This document shows, piece after piece, positions 4,057 through 43,107 of a DNA stretch of 64,000 nucleotides. This DNA is from an uncultured Lachnospiraceae bacterium (GTDB lineage Bacteria > Bacillota > Clostridia > Lachnospirales > Lachnospiraceae). Where the stretch lies: assembly GCA_903789615.1 (NCBI GenBank), contig CAIFEV010000002.1, forward strand, positions 186,001-250,000. Reading direction: 5' to 3'. How positions within the stretch are numbered: the first letter of the stretch is position 1; each line of letters opens with the position of its first letter. Position numbers and translations under genes: made by a program. The notes beneath the pieces are model-generated. The model was not told the origin of the DNA, did no database searches, and was given only the letters and a program-made list of their open reading frames with translations.

Positions 4057-4342
4057 TCAGCGGAAATGAAAATCGAGCCCGTTGCAGCTGTACTTTTGTC
4101 TCTCATTTTTCGGGGCCTGCAACGAAAATAAGATGTGTGTTCCGTTTCCGTTGCACTTTTGGTCCCATTTTCCGGGAGCCTGCAACGGAAATGAGATATG
4201 TGTTCCGTTTCCGTTGCATTTTTGCCCGAAATCGGGCTGACTGCGCAACGAAAAAAGGTCAGAATGTTTTTTTCGTTGCACTTCCTGTCAAAATCAGTCA
4301 AAAAGCGCAACGGAAATCAAGGGTGGGGTGGATTTCCGTTGC
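4057..4342. repeat. Tandem hairpin array A (62-63 bp units, GCAACGGAAA arms)
   Basis: Five units start at about 4057, 4119, 4182, 4245 and 4307 (spacing 62, 63, 63, 62). Units 2-5 are inverted repeats of 35-36 bases with left arm GCAACGGAAA or a variant and right arm TTTCCGTTGC, separated from the next unit by about 27 bases. Unit 4 has GCAACGAAAA paired with TTTTCGTTGC, so both arms changed together. Unit 1 is degenerate and carries CAGCGGAAA on its left side. Spacers contain their own small inverted repeats, for example GCCCGA/TCGGGC at about 4224-4237. The array lies in the 656-base gap between metK (downstream end) and mreB (upstream end). Confidence 0.9.
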
Positions 4343-5852: not shown

Positions 5853-5980
5853 CTCTTATTGCTCGAACCATCTCAGGAAACGGTTGTTCGCTCAGGTTTG
5901 GCACCTTCGCGTCCTGCAGTTGCTGGCGCGGGTTGCCGGGCTTCACAGATCCTATGTATCTCCACCACTCGAAATAAGGG
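5853..5980 (-). promoter_or_regulatory. SAM-I (S-box) riboswitch aptamer upstream of metK
   Basis: The minus strand shows the S-box core: a GGTGGAG block, then GTGAAGCCCGGCAACC and later GGTGCCAAACC. It is closed by helix P1 formed by CTTATT (5978-5973) and AATAAG (5860-5855). Downstream lies an intrinsic terminator, then the metK ribosome binding site. SAM-I aptamers bind S-adenosylmethionine, and metK is a classic target, so sequence, architecture and neighbour all agree. Confidence 0.95.
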
Positions 5981-12739: not shown

Positions 12740-13115
12740 TTCAGCAAAAATCAAGATTTATATCAATCTCGCTGAATATTTTATAGGATATTTGCATGCT
12801 TTTAAGCAAGGCAGGGAATTTCTACTGTTTCCGCTTATATTTTCGCAGGATTCGGCCCGAAAAATCCAGCGGAAAGCAGGCTGATATCCATTCTAGCTGA
12901 AACCACCACAAAACTGGCTCCTGAATATTCAGCAAAAAGCAAGTTAGGGTTCATTTTAGCTGGGGCCGCCACGGACCCGGTCCCCTGATATTCAGCAAAA
13001 AGCAAGATGGGGTCCATTTAGCTGAAACCACCGCCAAACCAGACCCCTGAATACTCAGCAAAAGCAGGCCGGGGTCATTTCTAGCTGAAACCACCACAAC
13101 ACCGGCCCACTTTAA
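12740..13115. repeat. Tandem hairpin array C (62-63 bp units, TTCAGC/GCTGAA arms)
   Basis: Six units start at about 12740, 12803, 12865, 12928, 12991 and 13054, 62-63 bases apart. Each has a left arm like TTCAGCAAAA and, 35-37 bases from its start, a right arm like TTTAGCTGAA. About 27 bases of spacer follow. Unit 2 instead carries TAAGC and GCTTA, a paired change. Unit 3 begins CCAGCGGAAA, intermediate with arrays A and B. The array fills the gap between the convergent ends of pncB and the GntR gene. Confidence 0.85.
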
Positions 13116-42920: not shown

Positions 42921-43107
42921 GCAACGGAAATCCTGATTTTCAAGATTTCCGTTGCACTTTTCTCTTTATTTTTGAAAAAAGTGCAACGAGAACAGCTTTT
43001 CCTGCCATTTCCGTTGCAGACGGCCGGTTTTCCGGTCAAAAACTGCAACGAAATCACACGTATTTCTTCATTTCCGTTGCAGGCGGCCGGTTTCCCGGCT
43101 TAGGGCA
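42921..43107. repeat. Tandem hairpin array B (62 bp units, GCAACGGAAA arms)
   Basis: Three units start at 42921, 42983 and 43045, exactly 62 bases apart. Unit 1 pairs GCAACGGAAATC with GATTTCCGTTGC perfectly; units 2 and 3 have the same right arm and altered left arms. Spacers contain inverted repeats of unrelated sequence: ACTTTT/AAAAGT, ACCGG/CCGGT and GCCGG/CCGGC. The arms are those of array A, 38 kb away. The array lies between the convergent ends of the macro-domain gene and the phosphohexomutase; 43108-43151 holds nothing else. Confidence 0.9.

Follow-up and report, generated by a model that had tools for sequence, protein, structure and literature searches.

Results

The repeat array between metK and mbl

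The window analysed here is a stretch of 64,000 nucleotides, positions 186001-250000 of contig C2, from the 2.45-Mb, 21-contig genome of an uncultured Lachnospiraceae bacterium (G000). Between the 3' end of metK (4542, minus strand) and the start of mbl (3885, minus strand), two genes named from Pfam matches of their orthologues in genome G007, it carries an array of five units at 4057-4342. Upstream of metK lies a SAM riboswitch (5853-5980, minus strand; Rfam RF00162, 58.1 bits). The array is built of arms of the form GCAACGRAA / TTYCGTTGC in alternating orientation, the 9-mers being 27 bp apart across linkers and 17 or 18 bp apart across loops. Left arms start at 4057, 4119, 4182, 4245 and 4307, which reproduces the spacing of 62, 63, 63 and 62 bp given in the initial annotation. 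Unit 1 (4057-4085, plus strand) is degenerate and reads TCAGCGGAA ... CCGTTGC, with a shortened loop and two mismatches in the left arm; unit 2 starts 62 bp on. The remaining units, all on the plus strand, are unit 2 (4119-4154; arms GCAACGAAA / TTCCGTTGC), unit 3 (4182-4217; GCAACGGAA / TTCCGTTGC), unit 4 (4245-4279; GCAACGAAA / TTTCGTTGC) and unit 5 (4307-4342; GCAACGGAA / TTCCGTTGC), and their arm pairs measure 36, 36, 35 and 36 bp end to end, within the 35-36 bases reported before. As also described there, both arms of unit 4 carry the same change (A on the left, T on the right). The proposal that co-varying arms are a rule was not confirmed, however, given that unit 2 has A opposite C and that co-variation is weak across arrays.

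The initial annotation had made its reading depend on the unit recurring outside this locus, and the unit is in fact dispersed in G000 and in other Lachnospiraceae. When both strands are counted, the window contains 11 matches, at six places, to the pattern GCAACGRAA-N(8-28)-TTYCGTTGC, compared with none in 100 dinucleotide shuffles; the whole genome contains 18 forward and 20 reverse matches to it and none to the reversed control pattern. Two further arrays in the window had gone unlisted: one at 12887-13099 with arms TTCAGCAAAA / TTTTAGCTGAA (TTCAGC), a period of 63 and the architecture of the 4057-4342 array, and one at 42921-43080 with three units of the GCAACG family between predicted genes that are convergent. 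In the first 400 kb of contig C2, 27 of the 28 exact arm 9-mers fall inside five arrays, and contigs C1, C9, C15 and C18 carry arrays as well. Measured start to start, the distance in G000 from a plus arm to the next minus arm is 26 or 27 bp (once 25) and that from a minus to a plus arm is 36 bp (rarely 35).

Searching C2 for the architecture instead of the arm sequence returned the additional arm families GCATCGG, TCATCGG and TTCAGC at the same period; 12 clusters scored at least 28 of 36, compared with 0, 1 and 0 in three shuffles, and among the 12 at least the one at 290937 resembles a chance hit. C2 also has a 61-bp tandem repeat of about three copies at 135982-136170, at which the alternating-arm search detected nothing.

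Outside G000 the GCAACG palindrome was found in G005 and G127 (one 27-bp palindrome in the latter), that is, in 3 of 145 genomes in all. A scan of genome contigs returned 22 stretches, six of which contain an array (L077, L088, L090, L093, L094 and L097; Lachnospiraceae or Clostridiales records); the other 16 have at most one extra weak arm each and were taken as chance, as were two stretches on viral contigs. Long hairpins of the form CGTTGCTTTTGTCTT...AAGACAAAAGCAACG occur at four isolated places in G002 (L070-L072), a member of the window's genus in which the gene described below has no match; they are not tandem and were set aside. A similar stretch bearing TTTCGTTGCAGTTT is present at two places in Jiella endophytica and in J. 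mangrovi (L080, L085, L086), with no surrounding array.

Arrays adjoin a gene for a nuclease-like protein

Arrays are linked to a solitary gene for a protein of 268-283 aa with a C-terminal PD-(D/E)XK-type domain. All three copies of this gene in G000 adjoin an array with arms of its own: GCAACG on C1, CATCGG on both sides of the copy on C9, and TTCAGC on C7. The C1 copy (G000:C1:30742-31560) lies 237 bp from a 7-unit GCAACG array and is the putative partner for the GCAACG arms, outside the window; the C7 copy (G000:C7:68278-69075), with the same arms beside it as the 12887-13099 array, is the likely partner of the latter. The same holds elsewhere. In G005 one copy (C110) is found with TTCAGC and another (C86) with CATCGG, the latter weakly (26 of 32); this assembly, which is 83% complete, also has GCAACG arrays, and its gene copies are linked only to CATCGG and TTCAGC. 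The full-length copy in G007 (C15) has CACCGG arrays on both sides, and alongside a 66-codon fragment in that genome no array was detected. Among the six array-bearing stretches of the contig scan, only L097, from a metagenome-assembled Clostridiales genome, includes the gene within the scanned stretch, and here two arrays flank a single gene of 283 aa.

The association was quantified at 73 loci, 60 from the upper part of the family match list and 13 others (72 are distinct; L140 and L166, both negative, are the same), with a detector of four alternating arms that scores up to 32 with spans of 24-61 and periods of 44-117. A score of at least 28 was reached by 52 of the 73 nuclease loci, while none of 73 shuffled loci scored above 26. 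Real controls reached 28 at 5 of 17 unrelated loci and, in a second group drawn from the window's genus or from one genome of the same order, at 1 of 15 (15 of 18 were kept; three were too short or masked). Because five of the 17 unrelated loci reach 28, we counted the association at 30, a score attained by 37/73 nuclease loci and by 0/32 control loci from other genomes (Fisher p 3e-8). With the flank as read, 36 of the 73 loci remain below 30 and 21 below 28. Nine of 67 tiles of the window's own contig also reach 30, mostly on its dispersed arrays; one of them (153401, period 114) is unrecognised. Of the 52 loci, 41 have their best-scoring array upstream of the gene and 11 downstream. Most arrays alternate in orientation and the longest has 33 arms.

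Units are whole numbers of helical turns

The 37 unit lengths at a score of at least 30 are not spread evenly: they fall at 53-55 (9), 62-64 (17), 73-74 (6), 84 and 86 (2) and 105-106 bp (3). A period of 10.5 bp fits them best (R 0.88; the phase is 0.4 bp off whole multiples), and R is likewise 0.88 at a score of at least 28 when only the 40 distinct arms are used. For the 52 loci the observed Z is 38.8, compared with values of up to 10.4 in 2,000 trials with random lengths. Unit lengths of 105-107 probably span two 5-turn units. The steps also occur within a single arm family. In G277 the plus-to-minus distance is 30 in 86 of 94 cases, and the 82 minus-to-plus distances are 21 (17), 32-33 (49), 42 (1), 29 and 34 (one each), together with longer distances of 83-86 (8), 95-98 (4) and 106 (1) that could extend across decayed units. 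Similarly, distances within one array differ by 10-12 bp at L145, L153 and L156. Judged from these lengths, whole-turn spacing speaks for sites bound by a protein and not for an RNA.

This bears on whether the array is a structured RNA, that is, tandem hairpins that are transcribed and used as RNA. The arms of a unit are complementary, and both change jointly between families (GCAACG/CGTTGC, GCATCG/CGATGC, TTCAGC/GCTGAA), as pairing would have it. In a pairing test on 71 within-unit pairs from 18 arrays of the GCAACG family, the two arms of one unit match at the R/Y position in 59% of cases compared with 48% by chance (p 0.035), and arms facing each other across the linker in 47% compared with 49%; the two A positions after R/Y do no better than chance. 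Matching is above chance within units at arm position 3 (A; 87% compared with 78%; across the linker 82%, p 0.098) and at arm position 5 (G; 94% compared with 88%; across the linker 95% compared with 86%), and the two bases preceding the core match above chance within units and across the linker too. Pairing is best supported at position 3. Most of the above-chance matching is common to both neighbours of an arm, as expected if arrays and species differ. Among 93 pairs of the G277 arm family, agreement at the variable position next to the core, on its inner side, is below chance (33% of pairs compared with 50%), and that at two inner, loop positions is slightly above chance (p 0.053 and 0.028). 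In the GCAACG family, the logo built from 149 half-sites of the 18 arrays has the core GCAACG(R)AA with weak flanks on both sides, and Rfam has no match at gathering scores at the 4057-4342 array. Since the positions that vary most pair only weakly and the spacing follows the helical turn, a step that an RNA does not require, we regard an RNA function as very improbable. Of the three options left by the initial annotation, a protein-binding array and a mobile palindrome stand, while the structured RNA finds little support in covariation.

Arms differ between gene copies and are conserved in arrays dispersed as blocks

Arms differ from one gene copy to the next. G271 has six copies, four of them with clear arrays and differing arms, and exact arm copies are concentrated at the own locus for these four (15, 30, 13 and 10, compared with 0-3 at the other five); the arrays of the remaining two, L257 and L258, are weak (2 compared with up to 2, and 3 compared with up to 1), counts that say little. 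The palindrome ATACATCGG, formed by the arms of G277, occurs 133 times in G277 and is absent from G005, G244 and G184. Across 52 loci, the more identical two proteins are, the more similar are their arms (Mantel r 0.33, p 0.0005), with no clear difference between the N-terminal (0.30) and C-terminal (0.32) parts of the protein.

Arrays are dispersed as blocks. Ten of 12 array stretches in G277 share collinear blocks of about 0.3-0.8 kb in both orientations, and the blocks shared by the other two are limited to 0.12-0.28 kb (in one of these the best hit reaches 0.36 kb but is a weak 67% match). The stretches on either side of the gene are mutually inverted over 440 bp at 89% identity. Arms are conserved in the dispersed copies: in 55 pairs from G277 arm columns are 99.7% identical and other columns 82.2%, and in 40 pairs from G000 the values are 95.3% and 72.0%. 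The 55 pairs leave out those shorter than 150 bp or above 96% identity, and since arms were located by the exact pattern in one sequence of each pair, the comparison somewhat favours arm identity. In the blastn alignments we found no uniform element end and no target-site duplication; block ends vary, and the flanks in G005 are too diverged to place ends.

The claim that the array is not a simple minisatellite is borne out. Some adjacent units, as in the C1 array, look recently duplicated, which is what passive tandem duplication beside an unrelated gene would give. Under that explanation, however, one gene family would hardly be associated in many genomes with different arms, and the alternation, phasing and arm conservation would be left aside; we consider it scarcely credible. 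Nor is the array a CRISPR array, as had been stated: identical direct repeats separated by unrelated spacers were not seen, the sites alternate in orientation, and loops are homologous from one array copy to another, with gradual divergence.

The positions of the arrays are relevant to a further explanation. With gene calls from a simple codon model, none of ten arrays in the 400 kb of C2 overlaps a gene, and five lie between convergent genes, five between tandem genes and none between divergent genes, compared with 16, 42 and 30 of 88 intergenic regions of at least 150 bp. Similarly, none of 14 array places in G277 overlaps a predicted gene (40-120 bp allowed at ends) and the sole divergent one is upstream of the nuclease gene; one array on C18 overlaps a weak gene call. 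Roles proposed for BIMEs are shaping the nucleoid, insulating gene ends or ending transcription, and the arrays could do the same for their host if the protein were domesticated and no longer mobilised them. This would fit with the avoidance of genes and of divergent regions, with the near-complete preservation of arms in dispersed copies, and with the lack of any plasmid or phage record covering 80% of the protein (72,556 plasmid and 50,697 phage records). On the other hand, the metK-mbl interval differs in its content in three sister species, being free of an array in G005 (about 250 bp), carrying the GCAACG array in G000 and the gene with CACCGG arrays in G007, and 279 of 397 genomes of the family have no match to the protein at E 1e-20. 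Both observations fit a selfish or dispensable element better, and we consider the host-serving role unlikely. On the mbl side G000 and G005 are 96% identical to within about 80 bp of the array; beyond this, divergence is too great for a junction to be visible.

The partner protein and its distribution

Neither Pfam above cut-off nor NCBIfam has a family for the partner protein. Its last ~110 residues match the C-terminus of PADLOC PDC-S68 (E 8e-28), and a region of ~150 residues at the N-terminus stands in place of the first ~1,100 positions of that profile. In an alignment of 46 sequences R169, S170, K171, E173, D204, F205, E219, H220 and G222, among others, are invariant (first-row numbering). 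The invariant acidic residues E173, D204 and E219, together with matches to nuclease folds, place the domain in the PD-(D/E)XK superfamily. The canonical (D/E)XK lysine, two positions after E219, is not kept and is R, L or C; because of this, catalysis may be altered or lost. The AlphaFold2 model of the L097 protein is good for residues ~160-280 only (block pLDDT mostly 84-93), and a single-sequence model of the N-terminal half, the part presumed to read the DNA, is poor, with a mean pLDDT of 44. Structural neighbours of the C-terminal domain by VIA-align are the homing endonuclease catalytic domain of I-Bth0305I (Z 8.8 over 94 residues), TnsA (8.6) and Bax1 (8.6), and Foldseek matches it to DrdV (E 3e-4); a Z near 8 can mean a mere common arrangement, and these model-based matches do not establish a common function. 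Three matches from a sequence search of the PDB (E 0.15 to 0.59) were rejected as relatives.

With a seven-sequence query and E <= 1e-20, 118 of 397 Lachnospiraceae genomes have a match, with up to six copies each; among the matches listed, which do not include the weakest, nearly all are close to full length. Of 11 genomes of the window's genus, 3 have homologues: G000 with three copies, and G005 and G007 with two each, one of those in G007 being the fragment. The other eight genomes lack the GCAACG palindrome. Sampled across the phylum, 11 of 398 genomes have a match. It is near full length solely in five genomes of Lachnospiraceae; in the other six it extends over no more than positions 80-268 of 269 and lies within an open frame of 213-1269 aa. 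Viral contigs yielded one partial relative with the seven-sequence query and nine with the 46-sequence query, all nine of them located at the C-terminal end of longer open frames (747-1353 aa), and relatives of the C-terminal domain on plasmids are proteins annotated as AAA ATPase or RecD-like helicase.

These relatives raise the question of a role in defence, in which the arrays would hold the nuclease and serve as a mark of self, and their disturbance would release the nuclease or direct it at foreign DNA. The kinship of the C-terminal domain with the PDC-S68 candidate, with the plasmid ATPase- and helicase-like proteins and with the large proteins of viral contigs is in line with such a guard, as is the finding that several pairs can share one genome. 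However, the eight neighbouring genes at four loci encode metabolic proteins or MreB, with no defence gene, recombinase, ATPase or target selector among them; nothing in the protein corresponds to the first ~1,100 profile positions of PDC-S68; and a guard has no need of mass dispersal such as that of the 133 palindromes in G277. We therefore regard a defence function as improbable.

Discussion

The initial annotation named REP/BIME elements as the nearest concept, and this comparison is supported: a different repeat lies beside each gene copy (in G271 for four of six copies) and the repeats are dispersed in trans. It had also remarked that the window lacks a RAYT gene. This is correct insofar as contig C2 has no Y1 match. 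It misleads all the same, since the genome carries the partner gene at another place, and that gene is of the PD-(D/E)XK type. RAYT/REPIN systems are described as a single gene flanked by its own palindromic repeat, which differs from gene to gene and is dispersed in trans (PMC3116915), and their palindromes as having a GTAG or CGTC tag at the base (PMC3733652). With the former description our system shares a lone nuclease-type gene beside its own repeat, a different repeat for each copy and dispersal in trans. It differs in that RAYT is a Y1 HUH transposase while the enzyme here is of the PD-(D/E)XK type, and in that the arrays alternate, are phased to whole helical turns and have arms of ~6-10 bp with long loops. 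The GTAG or CGTC tag is absent in the GCAACG family, in which the logo of 149 half-sites has AAGT-like bases before GCAACG, and membership in REP/RAYT was rejected in that neither of the full-length Y1 genes in G000, two in number, adjoins an array. With neither a Y1 partner nor a tag, the parallel with RAYT/REPIN concerns design and not descent.

Other known systems resemble ours in part. Tn7-like ends have arrays of inverted TnsB sites linked to an enzyme (PMC8649781), and TnsA is among the best fold matches; in contrast, tnsB and tnsC are absent among the eight neighbours at four loci, and the arrays described here also stand alone at many sites. PDC-S68 has a related C-terminal domain, but its ~1,200-position profile is matched at the C-terminus only and not as a whole. 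I-Bth0305I has the highest VIA-align Z, but the genes described here carry phased arrays of their own. In the open-access literature we found no description of this gene/array pair.

Combining the linkage of gene and array with the phasing and the constraint on arms, we suggest that the array between metK and mbl is a helically phased array of half-sites in a two-part system with a solitary PD-(D/E)XK-type protein, each protein having arrays specific to it. We hold this reading with a probability of about 0.6. Weighing against it are the 36 loci that stay below a score of 30, the G007 fragment and the two G271 copies beside which a clear array is lacking, the GCAACG arrays of G005, the changed lysine of the nuclease motif and the varying block ends, all seen in draft assemblies. 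From the alternating, phased array and the linked nuclease-like protein, we therefore suggest that the system works like RAYT/REPIN with an unrelated enzyme, the linked protein being the factor that would bind, cleave and mobilise the arrays. In this model, (i) the protein would read a half-site of 6-9 bp, (ii) a dimer would take each palindromic pair, and (iii) successive dimers would lie on one face of the DNA, because each unit is a whole number of helical turns, and might form a cooperative filament or a looped complex. Whole arrays, which are found as block copies at other intergenic sites, would be copied in the manner of a non-autonomous element served in trans; this copying may be driven by the nuclease domain, while the arms stay conserved. 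The array adjacent to the gene, mostly upstream of it, may also regulate the gene. A bolder and tentative version, possible but well short of probable, is that Lachnospiraceae harbour several (up to six) pairs of protein and DNA address, in which each protein polymerises on phased half-sites and its nuclease domain copies the arrays, giving rise to self-spreading, sequence-specific filaments.

If the two-part system is real, it would represent a second, unrelated solution to the problem solved by RAYT/REPIN, namely how a single nuclease gene can be maintained together with a very short palindrome in bacterial chromosomes. The many natural pairs of protein and site would make the coevolution of recognition testable by sequence alone, and the whole-helical-turn rule is a clear physical rule that can be tested at the bench. 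For the Lachnospiraceae, the system provides a lead to the function of an unnamed protein family that is matched in 118 of the 397 genomes sampled from the family.
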